Source of the DNA: Brevibacillus sp. | GTDB taxonomy: Bacteria > Bacillota > Bacilli > Brevibacillales > Brevibacillaceae | Direction of reading: 5' to 3' | Assembly: GCA_029240815.1 (NCBI GenBank) | Contig: JARDZO010000048.1 | Coordinates: 1-24,813 of the forward strand | Length of the DNA stretch: 24,813 nucleotides | Shown: one piece after another, positions 7,649-24,396 of the stretch | Position numbering within the stretch: position 1 is the first letter of the stretch | How the letters are laid out: every line of letters starts with the position of its first letter | Translations under genes and position numbers: made by a program | Notes under the pieces: generated by a model | Told to the model about the DNA's origin: nothing | Databases searched by the model: none | What the model saw: the letters and a program-made list of their open reading frames with translations, nothing else

Positions 7649-7671
7649 TAATACGTTTTTGTAACGTAATA
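7649..7671 (-). promoter_or_regulatory. Putative PAA operator upstream of paaA
   Basis: Read on the minus strand it is TATTACGT-TACAAAA-ACGTATTA, an imperfect dyad with ACGT-N7-ACGT spacing. The same layout recurs at 14527-14549 and 24374-24396. It overlaps the predicted -10 box (7669-7674) by 3 bp, so a bound protein would block transcription. PaaX is the natural candidate, by inference. Confidence 0.6.
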
Positions 7672-7698
7672 ATAACATATCGTCATACGATTCCGCAA
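7669..7698 (-). promoter_or_regulatory. Predicted sigma-A type promoter of paaABCD-aldehyde dehydrogenase
   Basis: On the minus strand, -35 TTGCGG (7693-7698), an 18-base spacer and -10 TATTAT (7669-7674). The -10 differs from consensus at one position and the -35 is moderate. The start point would fall near 7662, inside the operator. Confidence 0.5.
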
Positions 7699-7702
7699 TA
7701 GG

Positions 7703-7717
7703 TGCAAGCGTTTTCAT
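7703..7717. promoter_or_regulatory. cre box (CcpA catabolite control) upstream of paaA
   Basis: The minus strand reads ATGAAAACGCTTGCA, which fits the cre consensus WTGNAANCGNWNNCW at every fixed position. It sits just upstream of the predicted paaA -35 box and 10 bases past the stop of the chemoreceptor-like gene. It suggests carbon catabolite control of the epoxidase genes. Confidence 0.65.
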
Positions 7718-7727
7718 CGAACCCGAT

Positions 7728-8558
7728 TTATTCCATCCTTCCTCCGGATACCGCGGCTTCCTTCAATTGCTCCGCCATCTGCCTGAGCTGCTGCATGACG
7801 GCATCCAGCTCCTGTATTCGCGTAGACTGCTGCAGGCTGTGATTCATCGTCTTTTCCAGTTCGCCAGATACCGTCCCTACCAAACCATTCATTTCATCCA
7901 GAATGCGAAAAATGCTCTTTGCCGAGGTCGAGGTAGACTGAGAAAGTCTTCGAATCTCTTCTGCCACGACAGAAAACCCCCGCCCTGCTGTACCGGCACG
8001 AGCAGCTTCTAGCACAGCATTTAATCCCAACACATTGGAACGGGTGGATATGTCACGAATCAATTGGTTGATTTGCGAAGTCTCGGTGATTTTGGATTCC
8101 ATCTGAACAGCCGTCTCTGATAATGTATGACTGGCCAAAGCAAGATCGTTCGCTTCTTTTGCCAGACTCTCCGTATGGCTCGTGATGTTCTCGAGCGCAT
8201 CTGTCAAATTCTCAGCGAGTGCACGCAATCGATCTTCCTGATCGGTCGTCACGCCTGTGGCCAAACAACCGACCACCTGTCCATTCTCTACGATCGGAAA
8301 GCCTACCGCGATATACGGAACGCCGTAAAGCTCCTTGCCAATCTTGCGGACCACTCTCCGATTTTCTGCCACCGCTGTCGCATTGATGCTGCCGGCACGC
8401 AGCGGGTCCCCTACCTTGATTCCTAGATTCAAGTCTGATGCCGGATAATACGCCAAAAACTTCTCCCTGTCCGTAACCCCTACCATGCAATCAAACAAAA
8501 ACGCTTTCTGCAAAATCGGAGCTACCATCAAAAGACTGTTTAGTAATGACATGACCAT
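7728..8558 (-). CDS. Soluble methyl-accepting chemotaxis-like protein (YfmS-type)
   Basis: The product is 276 residues with no transmembrane helix, so it is a cytoplasmic chemoreceptor-like protein. Residues about 20-105 form a small sensor domain ([45 protein letters not shown]). A signalling region follows with the receptor tip [29 protein letters not shown] at about 197-225. The C-terminal helix is short, like B. subtilis YfmS. The first ATG (8558) lies only a few bases after GGGGGA; an ATG at 8552 has better spacing. It lies between the importer genes and paaA, so a role in sensing an aromatic acid or a metabolic state is plausible. The ligand is unknown. Confidence 0.82.
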
Positions 8559-8563
8559 TTCCC

Positions 8564-8575
8564 CCAGACGTCTGG
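8564..8575. promoter_or_regulatory. 12-bp perfect palindrome in the leader of the chemoreceptor-like gene
   Basis: The sequence ccagacgtctgg is fully self-complementary and ends a few bases before the GGGGGA ribosome binding site. It could be an operator or the edge of the adjacent repeat. Confidence 0.35.
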
Positions 8576-8579
8576 TGAC

Positions 8580-8717
8580 TAGAAAACTTGGCTACGCCAA
8601 GCTTTTGGTGGAGCCTTAGTACCCAAAGGGCACAAGTCGCGCTTACTCACTGCGTTCGAAGTCGCGCTATGTTGCACTTGTACTGGATAGGAAACGTAAT
8701 TCCTATCTGTACGAAAA
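8580..8717 (+). repeat. Structured dispersed repeat, copy 1
   Basis: This segment matches the reverse complement of 23264-23368. Shared blocks are agaaaacttggctacgcca, cccaaagggcacaagtc, ttgcact, tactggata and atctgtacgaaaa. It holds hairpins CTTGGC-TAC-GCCAAG (8587-8601) and GATAGGAA-acgtaa-TTCCTATC (8686-8707). It is about 30 bases longer than copy 2; much of the extra lies between two direct gtcgcgc repeats (8636-8642 and 8661-8667). It fills most of the gap between the substrate-binding protein gene and the chemoreceptor-like gene. Confidence 0.75.
8583..8604 (-). terminator. Possible terminator hairpin after the importer operon
   Basis: On the minus strand AAGCTTGGC-GTA-GCCAAGTTTTCT forms a 6-bp GC-rich stem, extendable with G-T and A-T pairs, followed by TTTTCT. 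It is part of the structured repeat. It could separate the liv-type genes from the chemoreceptor-like gene. Confidence 0.45.
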
Positions 8718-8785
8718 CAGCCGTCCCTCCCGCATCTTCCGTTTGCGGAAAGAACAGCCGTTTTACGCTTCAGCCTTGTTGTCCT

Positions 8786-9997
8786 TTATTTAAGAATCTG
8801 AAATTTGCCATCTTTGACTTCTACCATGATCATGCTGTCTTCCGTCAAGCCGTTGTGGTCTTCTGCGGAGAAGACAAATTCACCTGTTACCCCAACGTAT
8901 TTTACTTTCTCCAGCACCTCACCCAGCTTGGATGCATCGCCGCCTGCCTGCTTCAATCCTTCGACCATCAGATTCAAGCCATCGTAGCCGTAGCCTGCAA
9001 AGCCATCTGGCTCCACATTGTAAGCAGCCTTGTAACCATCTACGAATTTCTTGACGACTGCTGCTTGAGGATCGTTTGCATCGATCTGATCAGGTACCAG
9101 CAATTTACCCGCTACCATCAGGACTCCGTTGCCAGCATCACCTACGAGCTCGAGGAATTTGCTATTGGCAGAACCGTGGCTGCTGATGATCGGAATGCTC
9201 AGGTTCAGCTGTTTGGCTTCTTTTACAATCGTCGCGGGTCCTGGATTGGTCCCTGCTACGATCAAAGCCTGTGCGTCTGTCCCTTTGATCTTGGTCAATT
9301 GGGAGCTCATGGACGGATCCTTGGTTCCGTATTTTTCTTCGGCAACGATCGTGATACCGTATTCAGGCGCGTATTTCTTCAATTGCTGTGTCCAGCCGCT
9401 GCCGTATGGATTGCTGTCGTTGAGCATCGCCACTTTGGTGATGCCTTTTTCTTTCAAATATTTATAGATGCGCTTGGTTCCGTGAACATCGGTATGTGGA
9501 GTCTTGAAGATACCTGCACGTACCGGATTCGTGATTTGGTCAGCCGCTGCCATGGAGATCAGAGGAATCTTTTCGGACTGGGAGAATTCAGCCATTCCGA
9601 GGGATGGACCGCTGCCCGAGGATCCAAGTACTGCTACGACCTTTTCCTTGGAGACCAGCTTTTTGATCGCTTTGACCGCTTCCGTGTTGTCGGATTTGTC
9701 ATCTTCAAATACCACTTCGACCGGACGACCCTCTACACCACCAGCGCCATTTATTTCTTTCACCAGCAACTCCACTGCCTGTTTCTCAGGTACGCCGAGT
9801 GGGCTGTTTGGACCCGTCATGGAGAATACCGCACCTAGCTTGATCGGCTCCTTGCTGCCCGCTTCTGCCGTTTGTCCCGTTGCTGCCGGTTGTCCTGCTT
9901 CAGCAGCAGGCTTGGCACCGCCTCCACAAGCACTGAGCAAAACCATGGAAGCCAAAGCAATCGGGTAGAGCCACTTGGTCTTTTGACGTTTGTTCAC
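8786..9997 (-). CDS. livK: ABC transporter substrate-binding lipoprotein (LivJ/LivK family)
   Basis: This is an extracytoplasmic solute-binding protein of the Leu/Ile/Val-binding type (Peripla_BP_6), 403 residues. It begins with a basic N-region and a lipoprotein signal ending LLSAC, with Cys24 as the lipidation site, followed by a Gly/Ala/Thr-rich linker. The mature protein opens with KLGAVFSMTGPNSPLG and continues VELLVKEINGAGGVEGR, both typical. I chose the GTG at 9997 because TAGGGGG lies 8 bases before it; the frame is open to 10054 but that start gives no proper signal. It is the last gene of a five-gene importer. Because of its position among PAA genes the ligand may be an aromatic acid rather than a branched-chain amino acid (inference). 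Confidence 0.9.
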   Translation of the reverse strand: MNKRQKTKWLYPIALASMVLLSACGGGAKPAAEAGQPAATGQTAEAGSKEPIKLGAVFSMTGPNSPLGVPEKQAVELLVKEINGAGGVEGRPVEVVFEDDKSDNTEAVKAIKKLVSKEKVVAVLGSSGSGPSLGMAEFSQSEKIPLISMAAADQITNPVRAGIFKTPHTDVHGTKRIYKYLKEKGITKVAMLNDSNPYGSGWTQQLKKYAPEYGITIVAEEKYGTKDPSMSSQLTKIKGTDAQALIVAGTNPGPATIVKEAKQLNLSIPIISSHGSANSKFLELVGDAGNGVLMVAGKLLVPDQIDANDPQAAVVKKFVDGYKAAYNVEPDGFAGYGYDGLNLMVEGLKQAGGDASKLGEVLEKVKYVGVTGEFVFSAEDHNGLTEDSMIMVEVKDGKFQILK

Positions 9998-10040
9998 GGA
10001 AAAACCCCCTAGAATAGTTGTCGCTTTGTATGTTTTATTG

Positions 10041-10784
10041 TCAAACCGCTTCATGGGAATGTCCCAGATAGGCAGATTGCACTCTCGGATCGTTGCTGAT
10101 CATCTCTGCTGTGCCTTCCAGCATGACGGTTCCGGTGGAAAGCACATACGCCCGGTCTGAAATGGCCAGCGCGGCGCGAGCATTTTGCTCGACCAGCAGT
10201 ACGGTGGTCCCCCACTGCGAGCGAATTTCTTGCACAATCGTCAAGATTTCCTTGGCGATCAAAGGTGCCAGCCCCAATGACGGCTCGTCCAACAAGAGCA
10301 GCTGTGGTCGTGAGAGCAGTGCCCTGCCGATCGCCAGCATTTGTTGTTGACCGCCGGAGAGCGTACCGCCGAGCTGCCACTTCCGCTCAGCCAGGATCGG
10401 GAAGCGCTCGTACACCGTCTCCATCTCTTTGGCGATGTCGCTCTTGCTCGTCTTGGGCATTCGGTGAGAAGCTCCCAGCCATAGGTTGTCTTCCACTGTC
10501 AGTGTGGAGAATATTTGTCTGCGCTCAGGCACATGCGCCATTCCCCTCGCCACTACCAGTTCAGCCGGCACGCGAGTAATGTCCTGATCGCGGAACCAGA
10601 CGCTACCGTCTTTGGCTCCGTGCAAGCCGCAGATGCAATTGAGCAGCGTCGTCTTGCCCGCTCCATTTGAGCCGAGCAAGGATACGATCTCTCCTTCATT
10701 TACTTGCAGGTCAATTCCATGCAGCACTTCGACAGGACCGTAACGAGCCTTCATGTTTTCTACGCGTAAGATCGCTTTTCCCAT
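10041..10784 (-). CDS. livF: ABC transporter ATP-binding protein LivF
   Basis: This is one of the two ATPases of a HAAT-family (branched-chain amino acid type) importer, 247 residues. Walker A GSNGAGKTT is at about 38-46; the ABC signature is in GGTLSGGQQQMLAIGRALL, Walker B is LLLLDEPSLGLAP and the switch His lies past LLVEQN. The N-terminus MGKAILRVENMKARYGPVEVLHGI is typical of LivF. The ATG at 10784 has GGGGGTGA upstream; the longer frame to 10919 lies within livG. It begins 4 bases after the livG stop. Confidence 0.93.
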   Translation of the reverse strand: MGKAILRVENMKARYGPVEVLHGIDLQVNEGEIVSLLGSNGAGKTTLLNCICGLHGAKDGSVWFRDQDITRVPAELVVARGMAHVPERRQIFSTLTVEDNLWLGASHRMPKTSKSDIAKEMETVYERFPILAERKWQLGGTLSGGQQQMLAIGRALLSRPQLLLLDEPSLGLAPLIAKEILTIVQEIRSQWGTTVLLVEQNARAALAISDRAYVLSTGTVMLEGTAEMISNDPRVQSAYLGHSHEAV

Positions 10785-10788
10785 CTCT

Positions 10789-11571
10789 TCACCCCCGACT
10801 GTCTTCCTGTTCTTCCGTTCCCAGATAGGCCGCAATGACTCGCGGATTCTCCTGAATTTCGCGCGGGGTTCCTTCCGCAATTTTACTGCCTTGATCCAGG
10901 ACAACGATTCGATCGGCAATGGTCATAATCATGTCCATATCGTGCTCGACCAGTAGGATTGCCGTTCCGTTTTGGCGAATCTCCTGAAACATCCGGCTCA
11001 TCTCTGCTGTCTCAGTATGATTCAAGCCAGCGGCCGGCTCATCGAGTAGCAACAGTCTCGGTTCTGCCACCATCGCACGGGCAATTTCCATCAAGCGCAG
11101 TTTCCCGTACGGCAGACTCCCCGCCTGTGAAGCAGTCAGAGACGAGAGCCCTACCTTTTCCAGCCACGTCTTGGCACGCTCCTGCATCATCCGTTCTTCG
11201 CGACGCGATTTCGTCAGGCTCATTCCGCACGAAAACAGGCTCGAATGCGTCTTCGTATGCATGCCCACCATGACGTTCTCCAAGACGGTCATATCATCAA
11301 AGGTCTGGAGATTTTGAAAGGTTCGGGTGATCCCCATTTTTGCGTATTCATAGCCGGGTACTTGGGTCATCGGCTGATTGTCGAAGCGGATTTCTCCCTC
11401 AGAAGGCGGGATGACACCCGATACCATGTTGAGTACCGTGCTTTTTCCTGCACCGTTCGGACCGATCAGCGCCAGGATTTCTCCCTGTTGTACCTGAAAA
11501 TCAACGTGATTGACTGCGCGCACTCCACCGAAATCGCGTGAAAGGTCTTGTACTGCTAGCAGAGTTGTCAT
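10789..11571 (-). CDS. livG: ABC transporter ATP-binding protein LivG
   Basis: The second importer ATPase, 260 residues. Walker A GPNGAGKST is at 37-45, and GITRTFQNLQTFDDMTVLENVMVG follows. The signature is the LivG-type LPYGKLRLMEIARAM, and Walker B is LLLLDEPAAGLN. The switch His lies in LLVEHDMD. Its ATG overlaps the livM stop codon in an ATGA arrangement, which indicates translational coupling. It works with LivF on the cytoplasmic face of the LivHM channel. Confidence 0.93.
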   Translation of the reverse strand: MTTLLAVQDLSRDFGGVRAVNHVDFQVQQGEILALIGPNGAGKSTVLNMVSGVIPPSEGEIRFDNQPMTQVPGYEYAKMGITRTFQNLQTFDDMTVLENVMVGMHTKTHSSLFSCGMSLTKSRREERMMQERAKTWLEKVGLSSLTASQAGSLPYGKLRLMEIARAMVAEPRLLLLDEPAAGLNHTETAEMSRMFQEIRQNGTAILLVEHDMDMIMTIADRIVVLDQGSKIAEGTPREIQENPRVIAAYLGTEEQEDSRG

Positions 11572-12584
11572 GTCGCCGCCTTCCTTTCCACCCGTTGCTC
11601 TGTTGGTGCCGGTGCTTTTTTTGCTTGCGCTTTTTCATACATGGAACGGATGCGCGGTACCAGCCCTTCCGGCATGAACATCACGATCAGCACCAGGATG
11701 GCACCAAACACGATCGTATCGACATCGCCCTGCAGACCCGGCACAACTTCACTCATCAAGACGAGCCCTTCACTGATGAATCCGATGAGCAAGGTCCCAA
11801 TCAAGGCTCCCCAGATGCTCGTCATCCCGCCAATGACCACCATCGTCAAAAACTTGATCGACTCATGCATGCCGAACGGCTGGGGATCGAGAATGCCCAT
11901 ATAGTGTGCGTACAACCCACCGGAGACCCCGGCAAACATCCCGCTGACAACGAAGGCATTCAGTTTGAATTTTCGAACATCAATTCCCATGGACGTCGCG
12001 GCAATCTCGCTCTTGTGAATCGCCCGGAAGGCCCGTCCGATCCGGGAGTGCATGAGGTTCAGCGAGAAGAGCAGCACACAGGTGACGACTCCCCAAATCA
12101 GGTAGTACATCGACAGTTCACTGTCTCCAAAGAACGTAATCTTCGGAATGCTGATCATGCCGCTGGCACCGCCCGTTACAGGCTCCCACTCTGATATTCC
12201 GATCTGGACGATGTATCCAAAGGCAAGTGTCGCCATCGCCAAGTAGTAGCCCTGTAATCCCGCAATCGCTCTCCCCAGGATAAAGGCGAACAGCCCAGGT
12301 ACGATCGCCGAAGCTACAAGACCCACTAACGGCGTCAATCCGAGCTTTGTGGTCAAAACCGCTGACGTATAGGCACCGATGCCCCAAAACGATGCTTGTC
12401 CTAATGAGATTTGTCCCGCCAGGCCCATTACCAGGCATAAACCGATGGAAACAATGGCATGGAGGCCGATGACAATCCCCACGGAGCGATAGTATTCGTC
12501 CGGCATTATAAATGGAAAGAGAATCATGAGTGCCAAATAGATGCCTAAGCCTTTCCCCCACTTACCAACCAGTTGCTTCATCAT
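11568..12584 (-). CDS. livM: ABC transporter permease LivM
   Basis: A 338-residue integral membrane permease with roughly eight to ten hydrophobic helices. LCLVMGLAGQISLGQASFWGIGAYTSAVL is the family hallmark, and GVSGGLYAHYMG and VVIGGMTSIWGALIG are also typical. The C-terminal tail is basic. ATG codons at 12584 and 12581 are both possible; AAGGAGGGCT lies just before the first, so the second has better spacing. The first overlaps the livH stop by 4 bases. Confidence 0.93.
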   Translation of the reverse strand: MMKQLVGKWGKGLGIYLALMILFPFIMPDEYYRSVGIVIGLHAIVSIGLCLVMGLAGQISLGQASFWGIGAYTSAVLTTKLGLTPLVGLVASAIVPGLFAFILGRAIAGLQGYYLAMATLAFGYIVQIGISEWEPVTGGASGMISIPKITFFGDSELSMYYLIWGVVTCVLLFSLNLMHSRIGRAFRAIHKSEIAATSMGIDVRKFKLNAFVVSGMFAGVSGGLYAHYMGILDPQPFGMHESIKFLTMVVIGGMTSIWGALIGTLLIGFISEGLVLMSEVVPGLQGDVDTIVFGAILVLIVMFMPEGLVPRIRSMYEKAQAKKAPAPTEQRVERKAAT

Positions 12585-13459
12585 AGCCCTCCTTTCCCTA
12601 CGCTGCGTTCTCCAAAGATGCCGGATGGCTTGATCAACAACATGGCGATCAACACCAGAAAGGCAATCGCGTCTTTCATCCCTGAACTGATATAACCTGC
12701 GCCGAGTGACTCGACGATTCCGAGGATAAATGCGGCAACGGCTGCACCCAACGGATTACCCAGCCCGCCCAGAATGGCTGCCGAAAAACCTTTGATTCCG
12801 AGCAGTACCCCGATATCGTAGGAGGTCACACTCAAAGGGGCGATCACAATGCCGGCAATTGCACCTGTCGCACCACTGATTCCAAAAGCCAGCATACTCA
12901 TTTTTGCCGGGCTGATTCCCATCAGTCTCGCCGCCATCGGATTGATCGAACAGGCATTGATCTTTTTGCCGAGCATGGTCTTGTCCATCAAATACCACAG
13001 CAGAAACAAAATGATGAGGACCGCGACTAAAATCCACACGCTTTGCTGGGCGATATTCACGCCTCCCAGCGATATCGGCTGATTACTCGTAATCGGATCG
13101 AGTGCGTAAGCGTCCTTGCCCCAGATCAAGCTCGCCAGACCGCGTATCAGAGTGGAAATCCCGATGGTCAAAATGATCAAGCTGATCGGGCTAGCCTTTT
13201 TGACGTAAGCGATTACATACTTCTGCATGAGTACGCCTACCAGTGTGACGATCAGAATCGCCAATAAAGCGGCCAAGGCGTAAGGGACATTCATGCCTAT
13301 CATCGCTACTGTGACCATCCCGCCCAGCATCAAGAACTCGCCTTGTGCCAGGTTGATCACTTTGCTGACGTTGTAGATCGTGATGAATCCAACTGCGACG
13401 ATGGCATAAATGCCGCCACTAACCAAGCCGTTTGCAACGTATTGCAGTAATTCTGTCAT
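12581..13459 (-). CDS. livH: ABC transporter permease LivH
   Basis: A 292-residue integral membrane permease, partner of LivM. It starts MTELLQYVANGLVSGGIYAIVAVG, as LivH proteins do, then YNVSKVINLAQGEFLMLGGM; the C-terminal half has GFSAAILGGLGNPLGA. It is the first gene of the importer operon in the order H-M-G-F-K. The ribosome site AAGGGGGT is about 11 bases from the ATG, a little far. A cre-like box lies in its leader, and the paaX terminator lies upstream. Confidence 0.93.
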   Translation of the reverse strand: MTELLQYVANGLVSGGIYAIVAVGFITIYNVSKVINLAQGEFLMLGGMVTVAMIGMNVPYALAALLAILIVTLVGVLMQKYVIAYVKKASPISLIILTIGISTLIRGLASLIWGKDAYALDPITSNQPISLGGVNIAQQSVWILVAVLIILFLLWYLMDKTMLGKKINACSINPMAARLMGISPAKMSMLAFGISGATGAIAGIVIAPLSVTSYDIGVLLGIKGFSAAILGGLGNPLGAAVAAFILGIVESLGAGYISSGMKDAIAFLVLIAMLLIKPSGIFGERSVGKGGL

Positions 13460-13494
13460 GCTCGTGCTGTACCCCCTTTATCTAGCCTCTATAA

Positions 13495-13533: not shown

Positions 13534-13549
13534 ATTAATTATAATAAAT

Positions 13550-13569: not shown

Positions 13570-13596
13570 GTTTTGTTTGGTGCGTGGCTTTCGCAC

Positions 13597-14424: not shown

Positions 14425-14514
14425 GTTTTTTCTACCTCCAGATCGATTCATACCTATTCGCTGTGAAATTGTATCATATTCTTTGCATGCGCGTGAATCG
14501 ATCCAGAACATATG

Positions 14515-14534
14515 ACGTTATAATTATATAACGT
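14515..14534. promoter_or_regulatory. Perfect palindrome at the paaX-family promoter
   Basis: The sequence acgttataattatataacgt has perfect 8-bp arms, ACGTTATA and TATAACGT, around TAAT. It overlaps the 23-bp operator at 14527-14549 and lies just downstream of the predicted start point. It may provide an extra half-site for co-operative repressor binding. Confidence 0.6.
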
Positions 14535-14549
14535 TATTCTTACGTCATT
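14527..14549 (+). promoter_or_regulatory. Putative PAA operator at the paaX-family promoter
   Basis: TATAACGT-TATTCTT-ACGTCATT has the same ACGT-N7-ACGT layout as the sites at 7649-7671 and 24374-24396. It overlaps the paaX -10 box by 3 bp, exactly as at paaA. Confidence 0.62.
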
Positions 14550-14575
14550 ATATTAAAACGTTTATGAAGAGTCAA
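14547..14575 (-). promoter_or_regulatory. Sigma-A promoter of the paaX-family gene
   Basis: On the minus strand -35 TTGACT (14570-14575), a 17-base spacer and a perfect -10 TATAAT (14547-14552). This is the best promoter match in the window. The -35 lies 1 base after the stop of the thioesterase gene, so the PAA operon could also read through into the repressor gene. Predicted start near 14540. Confidence 0.8.
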
Positions 14576-14576
14576 T

Positions 14577-14996
14577 TTATTCTGCATATTTTTTGTCGAT
14601 TTCTGCCTGTAATTGCTGAAATCGACGCTGCATCTCATCCTTGTTGAAAATAGCTTGCGTGAACATGCCCACCCCGACACGATTGCGGGGGGTGTCTGCC
14701 GTAACCTCGCAGACTACCCGCTTTTCTGTTACTTCCACGCAAACCGCACGGAAGGTGACCTCCTGTCCAATGACTGCCGGACCGACATGCTTGATATCAA
14801 TAGCAAAGCCAGAGCCTTCCTCGTGCTCTTCCAAGTGAGGCAAAAGGACGTAGCGCCCTGCCTTTTCCATGTGATAGATCATGCTTACGGTAGACATGAC
14901 GGGATGAATCACTTCCCCGTCAAATACAGGAACCATCTCTGCCGTTACCGTCACGGAGAATTCCGCTGCCGCGCCTGGTTGGAGTCCATTTTTCAA
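14577..14996 (-). CDS. FlK-type hot-dog acyl-CoA thioesterase
   Basis: The 139-residue protein belongs to the thioesterase family typified by FlK, the fluoroacetyl-CoA thioesterase. The FlK catalytic triad as I recall it is Thr42, Glu50 and His76; here Thr36, Glu44 and His70 occur with the same 8- and 26-residue spacings (STVSMIYHMEKAGR, then FAIDIKHVGPAVIGQ). The start is a TTG at 14996 with AAGGAGGTGA five bases before it; the frame is open to 15155 without a site. It is the last gene of the PAA run, 28 bases after the thiolase. I infer a housekeeping role, releasing CoA from reactive or dead-end acyl-CoAs; the substrate is unknown. Confidence 0.85.
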   Translation of the reverse strand: MKNGLQPGAAAEFSVTVTAEMVPVFDGEVIHPVMSTVSMIYHMEKAGRYVLLPHLEEHEEGSGFAIDIKHVGPAVIGQEVTFRAVCVEVTEKRVVCEVTADTPRNRVGVGMFTQAIFNKDEMQRRFQQLQAEIDKKYAE

Positions 14997-15024
14997 GATC
15001 GTCACCTCCTTTTGTGGTGCTGTT

Positions 15025-16224: not shown

Positions 16225-16261
16225 CGCTTGCTCCTCCATCCTGACCACGTTTTTCCTTCTT

Positions 16262-17461
16262 TTATTCGAATGCTTCGACCAATGTTGCCAATCCTTGACC
16301 GCCACCAATGCACAGAGAAACAACACCATAGCGCGCTTTGCGACGACGCAGTTCATACAGGATGGCTCCTGCCAATCTGGCACCGCTTGCGCCGAGCGGA
16401 TGGCCCAGAGCAATCGCTCCTCCGTTCACGTTGGTCTTATCCGGGGACAAGCCCAGCTCACGCATGCAAGCGAGAGATTGGGAAGCAAAGGCTTCGTTCA
16501 GCTCAAACAGGTCGATTTGGTCGATCGTCATGTCGACTTCTGCCAACAATTTGCGGATGGCTGCAACCGGTCCGATGCCCATGATGCGTGGATCCACCCC
16601 GGCAGTGGCGAAGTGCACGATGCGGCCCAATGGCGTAAGTCCGGACTCGTCCAGCTTTTCCTTATTCATGAGCAGCAAAGCAGCAGCACCATCGTTAATT
16701 CCGGAAGAATTGCCTGCTGTTACACTGCCGTTTTTGCGAAAAGCAGGGCGCAGCTTGGCGAGAGACTCCACACTGGAATCGCGGCGAGGGAACTCATCGG
16801 TGTCAAAAATGGTTTCTTCCCCTTTTTTCCCGCGCAAGGTCACTGGCACGATTTCTTTACGAAACAGCCCTGCATCGATAGCTGCAACGGCTCGACGCTG
16901 ACTTTCCGCTGCAAACAGGTCCTGATCCTCGCGACTGATTCCGAATTGCTCTGCCACATTTTCAGCCGTGTCACCCATGGTCAGTTCTCCGTAGAGCGAG
17001 ATCGGGGCCGAACGCGGGCCGCCGAACGACTCGATCAAGGTCTGACCGCCGCGTTGGTAAGGCTGATCAAATTTCTCCATGATGTATGGGGAACGAGTCA
17101 GGTTTTCCACTCCACCAGCCAGCATGACACTGCTGTGACCAGCCTGGATCGATTGCGCAGCCAGATTGATTGCCTCCAGTCCGGAAGCACATACCCGGTT
17201 CACAGTCAGCCCTGGTACCGTTTCGGGCAGACCCGCTTTCAGCAACCCGACACGGGCAATATTAATGAAGGGGCCCGCTGAGATCACGTTCCCCATGATG
17301 ACACCATCGACGGCATCCCCAGTCTGTCCTGCCTGATTGAGCGCACCGTTCAGGACGATAGCTGTCAAATCATCGATCGGGGTATTTTTCAGACTGCCGC
17401 CCAGCTTGCCAATCGGTGTACGCACCGCAGCCGTTACGTAGACATCTTCCCGTACTGGCAT
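16262..17461 (-). CDS. Acetyl-CoA C-acyltransferase (second thiolase)
   Basis: Another 399-residue thiolase, clearly a diverged paralogue of the downstream one. The nucleophile is Cys91 in [38 protein letters not shown] and CIGGGQG complete the site. The CASGLEAI variant is common in acetoacetyl-CoA and general 3-ketoacyl-CoA thiolases. The ATG shares its A with the TGA stop of the upstream gene, and GGGGGTGA provides the ribosome site, so the two are translationally coupled. It might split the two thiolysis steps of the pathway with its neighbour, or handle fatty or side-chain acids. Confidence 0.87.
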   Translation of the reverse strand: MPVREDVYVTAAVRTPIGKLGGSLKNTPIDDLTAIVLNGALNQAGQTGDAVDGVIMGNVISAGPFINIARVGLLKAGLPETVPGLTVNRVCASGLEAINLAAQSIQAGHSSVMLAGGVENLTRSPYIMEKFDQPYQRGGQTLIESFGGPRSAPISLYGELTMGDTAENVAEQFGISREDQDLFAAESQRRAVAAIDAGLFRKEIVPVTLRGKKGEETIFDTDEFPRRDSSVESLAKLRPAFRKNGSVTAGNSSGINDGAAALLLMNKEKLDESGLTPLGRIVHFATAGVDPRIMGIGPVAAIRKLLAEVDMTIDQIDLFELNEAFASQSLACMRELGLSPDKTNVNGGAIALGHPLGASGARLAGAILYELRRRKARYGVVSLCIGGGQGLATLVEAFE

Positions 17462-18216
17462 CAGACTTCACCCCCGTCTTTTGGCTGATAGCTGTAAAAG
17501 CCTTGACCACTCCGTACGCCGTAACGCTTTGCCAGCACCAGCTTTCGCAATAACGGTGCTGTCCGATAACGCTCTTCTGCCAGATCACGCTGCAATCCGC
17601 GAGAAATAGCATAGATCTCGTCCAAGCCGATCCGGTCCGCCCATTCCAGTGGACCGTACGGGTAGTTGGTTCCTTTTTTCATCGCAGTGTCGATATCCTG
17701 TGGCGTCGCTGCCTTCTCCATCAGCGTGAACGCCGCTTCATTAATAATAAGAGAGAGAATGCGCGGAAATACCAGGCCAACTTCATCCTCCACCACTTCT
17801 GTTTCTTTACCGAGAGACTGGAAAAAAGCCATTGTCGCCGCCAAGGGCGCTTCCTCCGTCTGCAGAGCAGGAGCTACTTCAAACAGTGCGCGCTCCGCCA
17901 GTGGCACCAACGTGCCAAAGCCGCATACGCGCTCCGGATTCTGAGTCCACGAGGCTGCCTCTGTCGCTGTGATCGCAAGGGAAGTCGTTACGATCGGTAC
18001 AGATGGCCCTAGCAAGCGATCGATTTCGCACAGCTGCTCCTTTTTTGCCTCCAGATCGAGACTGTTTACTTCCAGTGCCAAAAAAATCGCTTCACGCTCA
18101 GCTGCTGCTTCGGTGAGCGAAACCACCCGATAACCGTGCATTTCTATTATTTGATGCAGTTCCGCATTAAGAGGACTGTCCCCCGCGAGCAAAACCGTCT
18201 TATTTGCTGTAGTCAT
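17461..18216 (-). CDS. C-terminal half of a split PaaH-type 3-hydroxyacyl-CoA dehydrogenase
   Basis: The 251-residue product matches the second half of E. coli-type PaaH. Residues about 1-125 form a Rossmann-like fold without the GxGxxG dinucleotide motif (TVLLAGDSPLNAELHQ instead). Residues about 145-250 are a 3HCDH C-terminal domain (LIINEAAFTLMEKAATPQDIDTAM, then NYPYGPLEWADRIG and EERYRTAPLLRKLV). Alone it should not bind NAD. The start ATG at 18216, with GGGGAT upstream, lies inside the end of the preceding gene, a 17-base overlap in a different frame. I infer that it pairs with that product to make a two-chain PaaH. A structural or regulatory role is possible. Confidence 0.85.
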   Translation of the reverse strand: MTTANKTVLLAGDSPLNAELHQIIEMHGYRVVSLTEAAAEREAIFLALEVNSLDLEAKKEQLCEIDRLLGPSVPIVTTSLAITATEAASWTQNPERVCGFGTLVPLAERALFEVAPALQTEEAPLAATMAFFQSLGKETEVVEDEVGLVFPRILSLIINEAAFTLMEKAATPQDIDTAMKKGTNYPYGPLEWADRIGLDEIYAISRGLQRDLAEERYRTAPLLRKLVLAKRYGVRSGQGFYSYQPKDGGEV

Positions 18217-19057
18217 AGAAGCCATCCCCCGTCTTTGCGCCCAGACTTCCGGCCTGTACCATCCGCTGTTGGATTCGGCTGGGCTTGAATCGTCCTTCGT
18301 GGAAGAAATCGGTGTAGACCGATTGGGTCGTGGCGAAATTGATATCAATACCGATCATGTCTTGCAGCTCAAACGGCCCCATTTTGAATCCGCCTGCTTG
18401 CTTCATGATCCGGTCGATCTGCTCGACACTTGCTCCGTTATCACCGAGAATACGCAATGCCTCATTATAGTAAGGTCGAGCGATGCGATTGACGATAAAC
18501 CCTGGTGTATCCGTTACGAGCACAGGTACTTTACCCAAATCCTCTGCAAAGCGATAGGCTGTCTGCACATTTTCTTCGCTGGACTTCTTCCCGCGGATCA
18601 CCTCAATGAGAGGCATGACCGGTGCAGGGTTGAAGAAGTGAAACCCGAGAGTGCGCTCAGGATGTGGAAGCCCTCCCGCGATTTCCGTAATGGAAATGGA
18701 GGACGTATTGGTCAAAAGCAACGCATCATTTCTGCAGATGCGGGAAAGGTCCCCAAAAATCGTTTTCTTCAGCTCTAGTCGCTCGGGCACTGCTTCAATG
18801 ACGATATCAGCAGCCGCTAGCTTTTCCATGTCGGATACAAAATGAACCCGATCCAGCGTCTCTGTTTTTTTCTGCTCGCTGATTTTTCCTTTTTCCACGT
18901 CCTTGGACAAAATGGATTGCAGGTAGCCCATCGCTTTGTCCAATACAATCTGGTTTGCATCCAGTAGCAACACATGATGTTCACGGCGGGCACAGACGAG
19001 AGCGATCCCTGCTCCCATCGTTCCTGCGCCAATAACTCCTACTGTTTTTCTCTCCAC
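18200..19057 (-). CDS. paaH: 3-hydroxyadipyl-CoA dehydrogenase, catalytic half (PaaH)
   Basis: PaaH oxidises 3-hydroxyadipyl-CoA to 3-oxoadipyl-CoA with NAD. The 285-residue product has the NAD-binding GAGTMGAG at 10-17 and TNTSSISIT. Catalytic His140 and Glu152 lie in GFHFFNPAPVMPLIEV. A first 3HCDH domain follows (GFIVNRIARPYYNEALRIL, FKMGPFELQDMIGIDIN) and it ends FYDYSK. It covers only the first half of the roughly 475-residue E. coli PaaH; the other half is the next gene. The GTG at 19057, eight bases after GGGGAGGT, is preferred to the in-frame start at 19105, which overlaps paaG. Confidence 0.92.
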   Translation of the reverse strand: MERKTVGVIGAGTMGAGIALVCARREHHVLLLDANQIVLDKAMGYLQSILSKDVEKGKISEQKKTETLDRVHFVSDMEKLAAADIVIEAVPERLELKKTIFGDLSRICRNDALLLTNTSSISITEIAGGLPHPERTLGFHFFNPAPVMPLIEVIRGKKSSEENVQTAYRFAEDLGKVPVLVTDTPGFIVNRIARPYYNEALRILGDNGASVEQIDRIMKQAGGFKMGPFELQDMIGIDINFATTQSVYTDFFHEGRFKPSRIQQRMVQAGSLGAKTGDGFYDYSK

Positions 19058-19079
19058 TTTTCTCAACCTCCCCTTTGCC

Positions 19080-19856
19080 CTATCGGCCGGTAAATCGAGG
19101 AGCACGCTTTTCCATGAAGGCGGTTACCCCTTCTTTGTGATCCTCCGTGCTGCCTGCCGCCTCCTGTGCAAACGCTTCGTATTTGAGCGTCTCTTCCAGA
19201 TTCATTTCGAGACCTTTGTACATCGTCCGCTTGATCAAGCCGATCGCACGTGTAGGCAAGACTGCGAGCTTGCGGGCGTACGCTAGTGCTTCTTCCATAA
19301 AGCTGTCTGCCGGATACACCTGATTGACGAGCCCGATCCGCAGGGCTTCTGCTGCCGTTACCTTTTCCCCCGTCATGGCCAGCTCCAGCGCTTTGCCCAT
19401 TCCGACAATCCGCGGGAGGAAGTAGCAACCACCTGAGTCTGGCACCAATCCGATATTGACGAAGGCGTTGACGAACGAAGACTTTTCCGATGCGAGACGA
19501 ATATCACAAGCCAGCGCGACGCTCATGCCTGCACCTGCTGCCACTCCGTTGACCGCTGCGATAATCGGCTTCTCGGTTTTTTGAAACTGGAGAATCATCG
19601 GATTGTAGCGTTCCCGTAAAAATCCGCCGAAGTCTACATCGCCCCCAGCAACATCGCCGAGATCCTGCCCTGCATTAAAGGCACGACCCGCACCCGTCAA
19701 GACGATACAACGGACATCTGCATCTTTTTGCGCCTTTTTGAGAGCATCTGTGATTTCCTTATTCATTTTTTCTGTGAAAGCATTGAATTTATCTGGTCGA
19801 TTCAGAGTTACGACTGCAACGCCCTCCGATACCTCGTACAGAATCGTTTCGTACAT
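19080..19856 (-). CDS. paaG: 1,2-epoxyphenylacetyl-CoA isomerase PaaG
   Basis: PaaG isomerises the ring epoxide to oxepin-CoA and also shifts a double bond later in the pathway. The 258-residue crotonase-fold protein has the oxyanion-hole segments GRAFNAGQDL and NGVAAGAGMSVALACD. Asp140 lies in GLVPDSGG, at the place of E. coli PaaG Asp136, and the glutamates of true hydratases are absent, as expected for the isomerase. It ends KRAPRFTGR, the common C-terminus. The ATG at 19856 has AGGAGG overlapping the paaF stop codon, so the two genes are coupled. Confidence 0.92.
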   Translation of the reverse strand: MYETILYEVSEGVAVVTLNRPDKFNAFTEKMNKEITDALKKAQKDADVRCIVLTGAGRAFNAGQDLGDVAGGDVDFGGFLRERYNPMILQFQKTEKPIIAAVNGVAAGAGMSVALACDIRLASEKSSFVNAFVNIGLVPDSGGCYFLPRIVGMGKALELAMTGEKVTAAEALRIGLVNQVYPADSFMEEALAYARKLAVLPTRAIGLIKRTMYKGLEMNLEETLKYEAFAQEAAGSTEDHKEGVTAFMEKRAPRFTGR

Positions 19857-19865
19857 GGCCGCCTC

Positions 19866-20639
19866 CTAGTTTCCCGTAAACCGGGGTTTGCGCTTCTCCA
19901 AAAAAGCTTGCATGCCTTCTTTTCGATCCTCACTTGCCAAGAGCAGGTAGAAGCCGTTGCGTTCGTAATCCATACCTTCCTGTAGTGGCAGATCGTCCGC
20001 CTTGTGCGCTGCCTTTTTGATGACCTGCACAGCGAGTGGCGGCTGCTTCGCGATTTGTTTCGCCAGCTTCAGTGCTTCCTGATAGTAGGCTTCGACGGGT
20101 ACGACCCGATTGACCAGCCCGTACTGCAACGCTTCCTTCGCAGAAATCGGATCTCCGGTGAACAGCATCTCCATCGCCTTTCGCAACCCGACTGCACGCA
20201 CCAAACGTTGGGTACCACCTGCCCCAGGCATCACCCCTAGCTTGATTTCCGGTTGACCGATGACAGCCGTTTCCGACGCGATGACGATGTCGCAGTTCAT
20301 CATCAACTCACAGCCGCCGCCGAGTGCGAAACCACTGACGGCCCCGATAATCGGTTTGGAGATCAACGAGATGCGATCCCACACGGCAAACTGATTTCGC
20401 TTCATAATGTCGATAGCCGATGCCTCAGCCATTTCATTGATGTCGGCTCCAGCAGCAAACGCTTTTTCATTCCCGGTGACAAGAATCGTCCGAATGTCCG
20501 GGTCTTTGTCCAGACTCTCCAGCTCTGTGACGAGCTCATTGATCAGTTTTAAATTCAAGGCATTGAGAATTTTCGGTCGATTCAGCGTGACAATACCGAC
20601 ACCATCTTCGCGACCAGTGGTGATGAATTCATAAGACAC
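19866..20639 (-). CDS. paaF: 2,3-dehydroadipyl-CoA hydratase PaaF
   Basis: A classical enoyl-CoA hydratase, 257 residues. Both catalytic glutamates are present: Glu111 in LGGGCELMMNCD and Glu131 in GQPEIKLGVMPGAGG. The other oxyanion segment is KAFAAGADINEM. In the pathway PaaF adds water to 2,3-dehydroadipyl-CoA to give the substrate of PaaH. The start is a GTG at 20639 with AAAGGGGGA nine bases upstream. It follows paaK after 33 bases and is coupled to paaG. Confidence 0.88.
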   Translation of the reverse strand: MSYEFITTGREDGVGIVTLNRPKILNALNLKLINELVTELESLDKDPDIRTILVTGNEKAFAAGADINEMAEASAIDIMKRNQFAVWDRISLISKPIIGAVSGFALGGGCELMMNCDIVIASETAVIGQPEIKLGVMPGAGGTQRLVRAVGLRKAMEMLFTGDPISAKEALQYGLVNRVVPVEAYYQEALKLAKQIAKQPPLAVQVIKKAAHKADDLPLQEGMDYERNGFYLLLASEDRKEGMQAFLEKRKPRFTGN

Positions 20640-20672
20640 AGCCTCATCCCCCTTTCTCCAACCAAGACAGAT

Positions 20673-22001
20673 TTAGATGGCAGCTTGCGTTTTGTTACGG
20701 TTGTCCACTACACGGATCGCTTTGCTCTCGCTTCTCAGGAGGGAGTTTGGCGGCAAGAAACGTACAACTACCGATACGCCCAGCGAGCATTTGATCATGT
20801 GACCGATTTCTTTGACCAGCGAGGACAAGGCAGAACTTTCGATGGATCCAATCTCATTCATATATTCAGGTGTCAATTCGCAGTGAACTTCAAAACGGTC
20901 TAACGCTCCGTCACGTTCGATGACGACTTGATAATGTGGCGCCAATTGCTTGAAAGTGAGCAGAACTGCTTCAATTTCAGTAGGGAATACATTGACTCCG
21001 CGAATAATCAGCATGTCGTCTACGCGACCTTTGATACGGGACATACGCATGGTGGTACGACCGCATTTACAAGGCTCAGGATTGAGGGAGGCAATATCAC
21101 CTGTGCGATAGCGAACGACCGGGAACGCTTCCTTCGTCAAAGACGTGAACACAAGCTCGCCCTCTTGACCGTACGGGAGAACTTCCCCTGTTTTGGGATC
21201 GATAATTTCCGCATAGAAATGGTCTTCCGCGATATGCAAACCATCTTGTGCTTCATGACATTCAATCGATACGCCTGGTCCCATTACTTCGCTCAGCCCG
21301 TAAATGTCCACTGCCTTAATGTCCAGTGCCGCTTCCAGTTGAACACGCATTTCCTCGGACCACGGCTCTGCTCCGAAAATGCCGTATTTGATGCTTGTTT
21401 CCCGTGGATTGATGCCTTGCTTTTTCATTTCTTCGACGATGTTGAGAACGTAAGAAGGAGTTCCGGACAGACCACGCGGCTTGAAATCCTCGATCAGCGT
21501 GATTTGACGAGGAGTATTTCCGCCCGATACTGGAACGGCGACAGCCCCCATGCGTTCAATACCATTGTGCAGGCCCAATCCACCTGTAAAGAGGCCGTAG
21601 CCATAGGCGTTGTGGAAAATGTCACCAGGTTCTCCACCCGCACAGCAAATGCCGCGAGCTACGATTTCTGCCCAGTTGTCCAAGTCATTTTTGGTGTAGC
21701 CTACAACAGTCGGTTTTCCTTTTGTACCTGAAGAACCATGGATCCGCGATACTTCTTTCATATCCACTGCGAAAAGATTGAAAGGATAGTTCTCACGCAA
21801 ATGCGTTTTCTTCATGAACGGCAGTTTTTGAATATCCTCCATGGATTGGATATCTTCCGGCTTTACTCCAACTTCATCAAACGCTTGTTTATGAAAGGGG
21901 ACTCGCTCATAGACACGCTTTACGGTTTCTTGCAGACGTTTCAGTTGCAATTCTGTCATTTTTTCCTTTGACAGCGTTTCCATTTCCACGTTAAAAATCA
22001 T
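20673..22001 (-). CDS. paaK: Phenylacetate-CoA ligase
   Basis: PaaK activates phenylacetate with ATP and CoA in the cytoplasm and commits it to this pathway. The 442-residue adenylate-forming enzyme has the nucleotide loop HGSSGTKGKPT at 88-98, FGAEPWSEEMR, DIYGLSEVMGPGV and YRTGDIASL. The C-terminal lid is GRVDDMLIIRGVNVFPTEIE with a Lys in RSESKAIRV. The Cys residues in PCKCGR may bind metal, as in relatives. The ATG at 22001 is preceded by GAGGGAG. Length and motifs fit the family throughout. Confidence 0.95.
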   Translation of the reverse strand: MIFNVEMETLSKEKMTELQLKRLQETVKRVYERVPFHKQAFDEVGVKPEDIQSMEDIQKLPFMKKTHLRENYPFNLFAVDMKEVSRIHGSSGTKGKPTVVGYTKNDLDNWAEIVARGICCAGGEPGDIFHNAYGYGLFTGGLGLHNGIERMGAVAVPVSGGNTPRQITLIEDFKPRGLSGTPSYVLNIVEEMKKQGINPRETSIKYGIFGAEPWSEEMRVQLEAALDIKAVDIYGLSEVMGPGVSIECHEAQDGLHIAEDHFYAEIIDPKTGEVLPYGQEGELVFTSLTKEAFPVVRYRTGDIASLNPEPCKCGRTTMRMSRIKGRVDDMLIIRGVNVFPTEIEAVLLTFKQLAPHYQVVIERDGALDRFEVHCELTPEYMNEIGSIESSALSSLVKEIGHMIKCSLGVSVVVRFLPPNSLLRSESKAIRVVDNRNKTQAAI

Positions 22002-22047
22002 ACCGCTCCCTCATTTCTACGTTCTCGTTGTTTTACTTTTCTAGTTG

Positions 22048-22833
22048 TTATTCTCCTTTAAACTCCGGTCTGCGCTTTTCTCGAAACGCTTCGAGAGCTT
22101 CCAGCCGATCTTTGGTCGGAATAATCACTTCATAGCACATGGATTCCAGATCAAGACCTGTTTGCAAGTCTACGCTGGAACCGCGGTCAATCGCTGATTT
22201 TGCCTGATAAACGGCAAGTGGTGCATTGGCGAGAATCTCCCGCGAAAGTCCGACTGCCTGCTCTTTCAGCTCTGCAAGATCTTTTGCCACGCCGTTCACG
22301 AAACCTAGCTCATACGCATCTGTTGCAGAGATCCGACGTGCCGTCAAAATCAGCTCCTTGGCTCTAGAAGGACCGATCAATCGAGACAACCGTTGTGTAC
22401 CGCCTGCTCCTGGTATGATACCCAAGCTCACTTCCGTTAGCCCCATCTTGGCGTCAACCACCGCATATCGGAAATCACAGGCCAGAGCCAGCTCAAATCC
22501 TCCACCAAAAGCAAACCCATTGATCAAGGCAATTGTCGGTTGAGGCAGTCTCTCCATTGCGGTAAAAACATCCCTGATTTTGCGTACGTTACGGCGTACT
22601 TGCTGCTCAGTCAACGTACGGCGTTCTTTCAAGTCCGCACCTGCACAGAACGCTCTTCCTTCTGCTTTTACCAAGACGACGCGAATCTCCTTGGAATTCA
22701 GGCGAATCTCCTCGATGATTTCACCTAGGCGATCCAATGTATCGTAGTTTAATGCGTTCAGCTCATCCGGACGATTCAGTGTGATGAGCCCGATGTGTCC
22801 GTCAATCTCGAAACGCACAGTTTCCTGGTTCAT
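22048..22833 (-). CDS. Enoyl-CoA hydratase/isomerase family protein (third crotonase of the locus)
   Basis: A 261-residue crotonase-fold protein with both hydratase glutamates, Glu114 in FGGGFELALACD and Glu134 in GLTEVSLGIIPGAGG. The oxyanion segment is GRAFCAGADLKERRTL. It resembles AUH/methylglutaconyl-CoA hydratase-like enzymes such as YngF. It is distinct from PaaF and PaaG. Since no PaaZ hydratase domain is seen, it is a candidate for opening the oxepin ring, although PaaZ uses a MaoC-like fold, so that would be a non-homologous replacement. The ATG at 22833 has AAGGAGGA upstream. It may instead be a general beta-oxidation hydratase. Confidence 0.88.
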   Translation of the reverse strand: MNQETVRFEIDGHIGLITLNRPDELNALNYDTLDRLGEIIEEIRLNSKEIRVVLVKAEGRAFCAGADLKERRTLTEQQVRRNVRKIRDVFTAMERLPQPTIALINGFAFGGGFELALACDFRYAVVDAKMGLTEVSLGIIPGAGGTQRLSRLIGPSRAKELILTARRISATDAYELGFVNGVAKDLAELKEQAVGLSREILANAPLAVYQAKSAIDRGSSVDLQTGLDLESMCYEVIIPTKDRLEALEAFREKRRPEFKGE

Positions 22834-22863
22834 CTTTGTCCTCCTTGTGGATCTGCAAAGGAA

Positions 22864-23250
22864 TTACGCCTGACGGGTCCGTGCATATGTGCCAGTAGCA
22901 ACCGCGACGAGCTTGCCATCACAGGTGACGCGAGCTTCCATGATGATCAGTGTCTTGCCTGACTTCAGCACGGTGGACTGTGCCTCGAGCAGCTCACCCT
23001 TCGCCGGGTACAAGTACTGGATCTTGCTCTCTACCGTGACGCACTGCTGTACACCGTCTACGTGAGGTGCGGCACCATGCCCCATCGCCACATCGGCTAA
23101 CGTGGAAGTAACTCCGCCGTGCACGACTCCTTCGATACTGTTGAACAATTCAGGACGGATCTTCAGAGCGACCTTGCATCCCTGTTCATCTCGTTGGATG
23201 ACCTCAATTCCCAGGTAGTCATTGAACCGATTTCGGATATTTTCAGTCAT
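22864..23250 (-). CDS. PaaI-like hot-dog thioesterase (second copy)
   Basis: This 128-residue single-domain hot-dog protein has the family motif NSIEGVVHGGVTSTLADVAMG, with Asn37 and Asp53 as likely catalytic residues. It ends VAVATGTYARTR. Such enzymes hydrolyse aryl- or acyl-CoA thioesters. It is the first gene of the large PAA run and follows the structured repeat, whose edge lies just before the AAGGGG ribosome site. It is only distantly similar to the PaaI encoded upstream at 23552-24019. Confidence 0.85.
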   Translation of the reverse strand: MTENIRNRFNDYLGIEVIQRDEQGCKVALKIRPELFNSIEGVVHGGVTSTLADVAMGHGAAPHVDGVQQCVTVESKIQYLYPAKGELLEAQSTVLKSGKTLIIMEARVTCDGKLVAVATGTYARTRQA

Positions 23251-23263
23251 TGCTGCGGCCCCT

Positions 23264-23368
23264 TTTTCGTACAGATAAGAATTTTAAGATTCTTATCCAG
23301 TATTAGTGCAACTAGGGCGAGACTTGTGCCCTTTGGGTGCAAAGGCTTGGCGTAGCCAAGTTTTCTAA
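23264..23368 (-). repeat. Structured dispersed repeat, copy 2
   Basis: Inverted relative to copy 1 (8580-8717). Hairpins are cttggc-gta-gccaag (23346-23360) and GATAAGAAT-tttaag-ATTCTTATC (23274-23297). The second stem differs from copy 1 by a paired change (G-C to A-T), so the fold is kept. It ends about 14 bases before the ATG of the thioesterase gene at 23250. Confidence 0.75.
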
Positions 23369-23489
23369 CTGAATCAGAAAGCGTAAAACTTCTTGGACAC
23401 TCTGCCTGATTCAGCAAGAATAACCTTCCGCTAAAACGCGGTCGCTCCCCTATGAATACGCTCGATAGAGGTTTTCTTATGATCTCACG

Positions 23490-23533
23490 TAAAACAGTGA
23501 AAGGAGCCTTGCATTTGCATTCGGCATCCTTTC
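23490..23533 (-). terminator. Probable terminator after paaI
   Basis: On the minus strand GAAAGGA pairs with TCCTTTC, and GCC with GGC inside it around a one-base bulge, with a loop of about 14 bases. ACTGTTTTA follows. It would end the EthD-paaI unit or attenuate read-through into the PAA run. Confidence 0.55.
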
Positions 23534-23551
23534 TCTGCTTTTTCTCTAATA

Positions 23552-24019
23552 TTAGTTCGCTTCCTGATCCTCAATCGATACGAAGTACTCATTTTTGCGA
23601 TACGCCAGTGCATCCAGTGTAGCGATCAGCTCATTCTCACTCTCTACGCGAATGCGGTACCAGGCTGTACGATTGTTTTTCTTCTCCTCTGTCGCTGTCG
23701 CAACGAGACGATTCCCTTTGAATCCTGCTGCCAGAAAGCCTATATTCATCGACAAGGCCACAGAGGTTTTGCCATAGGAATTGCACGCGGCGGCAAATAC
23801 GAAGTCTGCCAGTGAAAAGATCACGGCTCCGTGCGCAGTCCCATGTGCATTCAACATATGGTCGGCGACCGTCAACTCTGCGGTTGCTGTCCCCTGCCCT
23901 AATTCTATCAGCTGTATCCCGAGAAATTGTGCGTACTGATCATTTGCCAGCTTTTCACAAATCTCATCGTAATGTTCTTGATGGAGCCTTCGCTCATCGA
24001 TAAACGGTTTCGCGCTCAT
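23552..24019 (-). CDS. paaI: Phenylacetyl-CoA thioesterase PaaI
   Basis: PaaI is a hot-dog thioesterase that hydrolyses hydroxylated phenylacetyl-CoAs and relieves CoA trapping when the pathway stalls. The 155-residue protein carries MLNAHGTAHGAVIFSLADFVFAAACNS, which follows the E. coli PaaI motif closely, with Asn57 and Asp72 as likely catalytic residues. The region SMNIGFLAAGFKGNRLVATA is also family-like. It has an N-terminal extension of about 20 residues compared with E. coli PaaI. Its ATG follows the EthD gene stop by 2 bases, so it is translationally coupled to it. Confidence 0.9.
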   Translation of the reverse strand: MSAKPFIDERRLHQEHYDEICEKLANDQYAQFLGIQLIELGQGTATAELTVADHMLNAHGTAHGAVIFSLADFVFAAACNSYGKTSVALSMNIGFLAAGFKGNRLVATATEEKKNNRTAWYRIRVESENELIATLDALAYRKNEYFVSIEDQEAN

Positions 24020-24021
24020 GG

Positions 24022-24324
24022 TTAAACCACTTCTGCAAAGTGCATGGAGACCACTGGACCTGCAAAGCCGCGGAGATCTTTTCCTGCCGCACGTCCTTCT
24101 GTTGATGACAACGCTTCCAATAATGCCTCTTTAGATTCGAAGTACATTTCTGCAATCAGATGCAGATCGCTCTCTCCCATAGGAGTTCCGTATATTCTGC
24201 TAACTTCCATTTTGATCAAGCCTGGCATTTTCTCTGCTAACGGGGCATGAACTTCATTGTAATGCTTGTCAAATGCCTCGATATCCTCTGGTTTACGATA
24301 AATAGCCACCAATTTCACCATCAT
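24022..24324 (-). CDS. EthD-domain small protein
   Basis: A 100-residue protein with the dimeric alpha/beta-barrel EthD fold: MVKLVAIYRKPEDIEAFDKHYNEVHAPLAEKMPG at the N-terminus, and AEMYFESKEALLEALSSTEG followed by GRAAGKDLRGFA. EthD-type proteins occur in ring-oxidation gene sets, but their exact activity is often unknown. It is first in a two-gene unit with paaI, behind the promoter and operator at 24374-24435. Two ATG codons in a row (24324 and 24321) are possible starts after AGGGA. I infer a role tied to an oxygenated intermediate of the pathway. Confidence 0.82.
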   Translation of the reverse strand: MMVKLVAIYRKPEDIEAFDKHYNEVHAPLAEKMPGLIKMEVSRIYGTPMGESDLHLIAEMYFESKEALLEALSSTEGRAAGKDLRGFAGPVVSMHFAEVV

Positions 24325-24373
24325 GATCCCTGCTTTCTTATAGAAATTGTCTAATCATGTGACGTCTATTAAG

Positions 24374-24396
24374 TATAACGTTATTTTAACGCACGT
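24374..24396 (+). promoter_or_regulatory. Putative PAA operator upstream of the EthD gene
   Basis: TATAACGT-TATTTTA-ACGCACGT shares the ACGT-N7-ACGY layout with the paaA and paaX sites. It extends to a second dyad, TATAACGT (24374-24381) with ACGTTATA (24393-24400), which is perfect over 8 bp. It sits just downstream of the predicted start point. Confidence 0.6.

Follow-up and report, generated by a model that had tools for sequence, protein, structure and literature searches.

The subject of this analysis is a phenylacetate (paa) gene cluster of Brevibacillus sp. on contig JARDZO010000048.1 (assembly GCA_029240815.1), taken as a window of 24,813 nucleotides, that is, the whole stretch of DNA at its full length. 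Three copies of one compact sequence element, lying 5' of paaA, of paaX and of the catabolic genes, are very probably the operators of the PaaX-family repressor encoded in the same cluster, judging by the sequence comparisons given below. This protein would repress its own gene as well as the two other units and would be released by phenylacetyl-CoA, as reported for E. coli PaaX. The elements and the gene for the proposed repressor are as follows.

7653..7685, minus strand: predicted paaA operator, with the outer TGACG at 7681-7685 and the inner ACGT copies at 7664-7667 and 7653-7656.
14513..14545, plus strand: predicted paaX operator (autoregulation), with the outer TGACG at 14513-14517 and the inner ACGT copies at 14531-14534 and 14542-14545.
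24360..24392, plus strand: predicted operator of the catabolic operon, with the outer TGACG at 24360-24364, the inner ACGT at 24378-24381 and ACGC at 24389-24392.
13597-14424, minus strand: PaaX repressor of 275 residues (TIGR02277, PF07848, PF20803, PF08223).

The initial annotation of this DNA had described a 23 bp element of the layout ACGT-N7-ACGY at 7649-7671 (minus strand), 14527-14549 and 24374-24396, and all three strings are present, with these coordinates and strands. It had also claimed that the layout occurs in no further intergenic region, and the five strand-wise matches in the window indeed fall at only these three places. By itself the layout is weak, there being a mean of 1.12 matches in 100 shuffles and a maximum of five, which was reached by one shuffle. 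The longer layout TGACG-N13-ACGT-N7-ACGY (33 bp) has exactly three matches in the window and none in 100 shuffles (0.00 expected). With a matrix of 43 columns, made from the sites of 22 relatives and excluding the window, the paaA site (55.6), the catabolic site (44.3) and the paaX site (41.0) are the three highest-scoring positions; the remaining positive scores (14.3, 12.2 and 3.7) overlap these sites on the opposite strand, and no other non-overlapping position in the window is positive. In the paaX leader, a further ACGT can be read at 14558-14561, which gives the four-fold array ACGT-N12-ACGT-N7-ACGT-N12-ACGT.

The protein encoded at 13597-14424 matches TIGR02277 with 292.4 bits, against a cut-off of 264.55, and has the N-terminal PaaX domain, the Cas2-like middle domain and the PaaX_C domain (PF07848, PF20803 and PF08223), all above cut-off. 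Its gene is located within the paa cluster, and the promoter of that gene bears one of the three sites. The closest PaaX among those of the 22 loci, 92% identical, is that of Brevibacillus centrosporus.

Sites aligned with those of the window were found among 22 sources at the paaA promoter (16), the catabolic promoter (14) and the paaX promoter (12). Across 39 Brevibacillales genomes, 53 of the 74 matches to the layout are no more than 15 kb from paaX, where about 0.4 would be expected, which shows that the motif is concentrated at paa loci. Sites near paaX are present in 27 of the 29 Brevibacillales genomes that carry PaaX.

Beyond this order, the 16-letter core pattern is present in 31 of 398 Bacilli genomes, and the same pattern read backwards in two. 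A PaaX match is found in 27 of the 31, compared with 115 of the 398 overall. When the 145 genomes with paaA over cut-off are divided by the presence of PaaX, the pattern occurs in 26 of 97 with it and in 0 of 48 without it (Fisher 1.2e-5, kinship ignored). A site scoring at least 16 is present in 28 of 37 loci from PaaX genomes (L116-L152), in 4 of 20 further loci (L223-L242) and in 2 of 40 paa loci without PaaX; reversed sequences give no site scoring at least 16. Four genomes (G095, G135, G136 and G336) contribute two loci each. Since 15 of the 37 loci were chosen on account of a site already known in them, the count to use is the one made without them, in which 19 of 42 PaaX loci carry such a site, against 2 of 40 PaaX-less loci (2.7e-5, kinship ignored). 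Of the two PaaX-less exceptions, L196 has its site over 13 kb away from paaA, and L211 of genome G274 has it at paaA.

The shape of the element was taken from 111 core matches in Bacilli, reduced to 87 at less than 75% identity and then to 75 after 12 sites with less than 60% A+T were dropped. The symmetrised consensus of these 75 non-redundant AT-rich sites is a dyad, ATAACGTT-N5-AACGTTAT. Its inner CG steps are invariant owing to the selection rule, of which the outer ACG was not part. Counted over 150 sides, an outer ACG stands 42 times at exactly 16 bp beyond the inner one, and no more than 3 times at any of the 27 other offsets. For sites from genomes other than Brevibacillus the count is 24 in 110 sides, with no more than 3 elsewhere, and for the 12 dropped sites it is 3 in 24. 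Of the 75 sites, 37 have one outer ACG or more and 5 have both. When up to 3 mismatches to this dyad are allowed, the paaX site (2) and the paaA site (3) match, and the catabolic site would take 4.

The sequence at 3112-3132, before ctaG, also has 2 mismatches to the Bacilli core and was rejected as an operator on the grounds that it is poorly kept in relatives. Of five relatives with a ctaG match, both halves are seen to be kept only in the closest (L243); the left half is lost in L244, there is no resemblance in L245 and L248, and in L247 the left half is outside the stretch read.

The three operators can be placed relative to the promoters of the units that they precede.

14547..14575, minus strand: paaX promoter, TTGACT-N17-TATAAT, 11 of 12 consensus letters, -10 box at 14547-14552.
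7669..7698, minus strand: likely paaA promoter, read by eye and similar in relatives, with a weak -35 box (TTGCGG) and an extended -10 box (TG-N-TATTAT), the latter read at 7669-7674.
24407..24435, minus strand: likely catabolic-operon promoter, read by eye as TTGCGC-N17-TATAAT, -10 box at 24407-24412.

Neither the paaA promoter nor that of the catabolic operon came up in a consensus scan of the minus strand. Alignment with relatives shows TATAAT retained at 11 of the 12 paaX sites and at 13 of the 14 catabolic sites. The 3 bp overlap of the 23 bp element with the -10 box, which had been claimed for paaA and paaX, is correct at both, the paaA -10 box being one read by eye. At paaX the core comes directly after the -10 box, and at paaA it comes after TG-N-TATTAT. 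The distance from the likely catabolic -10 box down to the core is greater, and the site there would cover the start region and the early transcript. At paaA the outer half-site is on the upstream side; at the other two promoters it is on the downstream side. That the site overlaps or adjoins the likely start region of all three units agrees with steric repression.

The presence of these sites might be explained in other ways, of which the most obvious is that they belong to a TetR-type PaaR, or to another regulator that shares the same genomes. The PaaR of Thermus and Burkholderia is likewise a paa repressor released by phenylacetyl-CoA, of another protein family, according to the review PMC9493321, and the operators reported for the Thermus protein are CNAACGNNCGTTNG or AACnAACGTTnGTT (PMC9493321, PMC6651687), the latter consensus having AACGTT in common with the half-sites described here (PMC6651687). 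Several Bacilli carry both PaaX and PaaR according to a survey of 2026 (PMC13186573), and PaaX-bearing Bacilli without a strong site are many. The distribution of the TetR proteins themselves makes this explanation improbable. A TetR protein (PF00440) like that at L183:5351-5992, with at least 48% identity and presumably PaaR, is present in 36 of the 40 PaaX-less paa loci and in none of the 37 loci L116-L152; it occurs in 7 of the 20 loci L223-L242, and those seven have no site scoring 12 or more. In L001-L021 there are only two matches to it, about 26% identical, and in the 39 Brevibacillales genomes identity is at most 36% among the matches listed. No gene of this type is present in the window, including beside paaA. 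The sites thus co-occur with PaaX, and not with the alternative TetR regulator, and the regulon of a Gram-positive PaaX-family repressor put forward in the initial annotation is supported on these comparative grounds, by conservation, by concentration at paa loci and by co-occurrence with PaaX.

It might also be argued that the sites are AT-rich promoter sequence inherited by common descent, with no operator function, given that they overlap or adjoin -10 boxes and are nearly identical among close relatives. Against this, the outer ACG, for which the 75 sites were not selected, stands at one exact offset (the 42 of 150 sides noted above), and both the distance from the core to the -10 box and the orientation of the array vary between promoters, so that this reading is given little credence. 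Chance likeness of three AT-rich leaders can draw on the short layout alone, with its 1.12 expected matches; set against an expectation of 0.00 for the extended layout, and against sites that are conserved and concentrated at paa loci, it is scarcely credible.

Several observations count against the assignment of the sites to PaaX and have to be set beside this evidence. B. centrosporus lacks the strict core at its paaX promoter. Four of the 31 genomes with the core pattern have neither PaaX nor PaaA; in these four the first CGTT is preceded by C or T, this letter being A in most sites. Among the PaaX loci sampled regardless of sites, 23 of 42 are without a strong site, and one of the 19 that do bear one (L151) has it away from both paaA and paaX. 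In genome G274 the site is at paaA, yet no PaaX is detectable, either as a family match or in a second search with the window PaaX, which had no positive control. Finally, the putative recognition-helix segment fails, within Bacilli, to separate site-bearing from site-less PaaX proteins: genome G255 has RVAVSRM (L096), as in many site-less loci, yet a paaA site scoring 30.7 (L226).

That segment, assigned by the general features of the fold, reads RAAISRM in the window PaaX and RTALFRL in the E. coli protein, a difference that would fit an altered DNA specificity relative to E. coli. A PaaX dimer would place its two winged helices on the inner dyad, one helical turn apart; with an inner half-site step of 11 bp, both would lie on the same face of the DNA, which suits a winged-helix dimer. 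A further contact may be made with the RACG half-site that lies 16 bp beyond the dyad. Once bound, PaaX would exclude RNA polymerase at paaA and paaX, where the site overlaps the -10 box and the start, and at the catabolic operon it would block initiation or early elongation. Release by phenylacetyl-CoA, the effector described in the literature for the PaaX of E. coli and Pseudomonas and assumed here, would turn on all three units together, paaX included.

The window PaaX belongs to the same protein family as E. coli PaaX (phmmer E 1.9e-46 to chain 8a39). According to PMC9493321, the E. coli protein controls catabolic promoters and the promoter of its own gene (at Px, by steric hindrance), has operators at Pz, Pa and Px with the published site TGATTC(N27)GAATCA, and is released by phenylacetyl-CoA. 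The element described here differs from that site, being a compact dyad with an 11 bp half-site step and an outer half-site 16 bp away. The initial annotation had supposed the motif to be unlike the E. coli site, and in agreement with this TGATTC-N27-GAATCA, at up to 3 mismatches, is found 10 times in the window against 14.89 expected and on none of the three operators; nor did the E. coli paaZ-paaA and paaX leaders, read by eye for the same half-sites, reveal a common architecture. The window operator is best regarded as a new variant within a known kind of regulation, PaaX control, with a layout unlike that of E. coli. In the Gram-positive Rhodococcus opacus, PaaX is reported as a negative regulator of a cluster of eight paa genes (PMC11186279), and the pathway survey of 6,536 genomes records PaaX in Bacilli (PMC13186573); the terms "binding site" and "operator" are absent from the main text of both papers. 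By title or the start of the abstract, none of the papers listed in a literature search that covered few subscription journals deals with a Gram-positive PaaX operator, which does not imply that none has been published. A review of 2022 states that the PaaX-operator complex had yet to be elucidated (PMC9493321).

The outer half-sites raise the question of how much DNA the repressor reads. It is conceivable, if rather doubtful, that bacillal PaaX reads more than a simple dyad, namely an array made up of the inner pair and of outer half-sites at a strictly fixed 16 bp, up to four in all, and that it binds either as a tetramer or as a pair of interacting dimers; the paaX promoter of the window is itself an example with four in a row. 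If that were so, the flipping of the array relative to transcription, with paaA in one orientation and paaX and the catabolic promoter in the other, might allow a single repressor to act with different strength at different promoters. The fixed distance of 16 bp makes the seating of the PaaX oligomer on DNA directly testable. More generally, there is now a concrete predicted operator for PaaX in Brevibacillus and in part of the wider Bacilli, and with it an AT-rich switch for Gram-positive hosts that probably responds to phenylacetyl-CoA.

The element also allows the regulon to be predicted where paa genes are split across the chromosome. In genomes G095 and G135 the site is before paaA, more than 1.4 Mb either way round from the sole PaaX, and in L147 it is before paaX without a recognised paa operon alongside. 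Two Paenibacillus genomes have an exact extended site (L038:1501-1533 and L039:1501-1533) about 8 kb upstream of paaA; in each the site precedes a gene, whose product in L038 is a substrate-binding protein of an ABC system (PF04392), and it is possible that this site marks an additional uptake system controlled by PaaX.

Among Bacilli with a PaaX about 50-53% identical (such as L119, L120 and L227-L233) there is no site scoring at least 16. Loci related to these may have a differently spaced element containing TAACG before some paaX genes, hinting at a second type of operator.

The cluster in which these sites lie is of the Brevibacillus type, with every gene of it on the minus strand, in the order catabolic genes, paaX, Liv-type ABC transporter, chemoreceptor-like gene and paaA onward.

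14577..24324, minus strand: catabolic genes (NCBIfam and Pfam matches).
24022-24324, minus strand: EthD-family gene, the first of the catabolic genes.
20673-22001, minus strand: PaaK (NCBIfam and Pfam matches).
14577-15005, minus strand: thioesterase, the last of the catabolic genes.
8786..13459, minus strand: Liv-type ABC transporter genes downstream of paaX (NCBIfam matches).
3449..7627, minus strand: paaA through PaaC, PaaD and aldehyde dehydrogenase (TIGR02156, TIGR02158 and TIGR02159 above cut-off).
6632-7627, minus strand: paaA open reading frame, the first gene of the unit 3449..7627.

The catabolic genes, which we infer to form one operon, include besides those listed PaaI, a thioesterase, enoyl-CoA hydratases, PaaF/PaaG-like and PaaH-like proteins, dehydrogenases and thiolases. 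Pattern scans of the window found neither ACGT-N7-ACGY nor the extended site before the Liv-type transporter genes.

Between the hairpin that follows paaX and the livH-type gene there is a cre-like (CcpA) element, TGTAAGCGTTTTA, at 13504-13516 on the minus strand, so labelled for its likeness to the cre consensus. Read by eye, TGTAAGCGTTT is retained at this position in 10 of 13 Brevibacillus loci, with variants in L010 and L011, and the element was not seen in L021 within the stretch read. The transporter may accordingly be under catabolite control.

The gene at 7728-8558, between the transporter genes and paaA, encodes a short protein that has the signalling domain of chemoreceptors (PF00015) and could link chemotaxis to phenylacetate. 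There is also an inverted repeat pair at 8580-8642 and 23317-23367, about 14.7 kb apart, the arms of which are 28 and 31 bp long and 96% and 90% complementary; it is possibly a small mobile or REP-like (repetitive extragenic palindromic) element.

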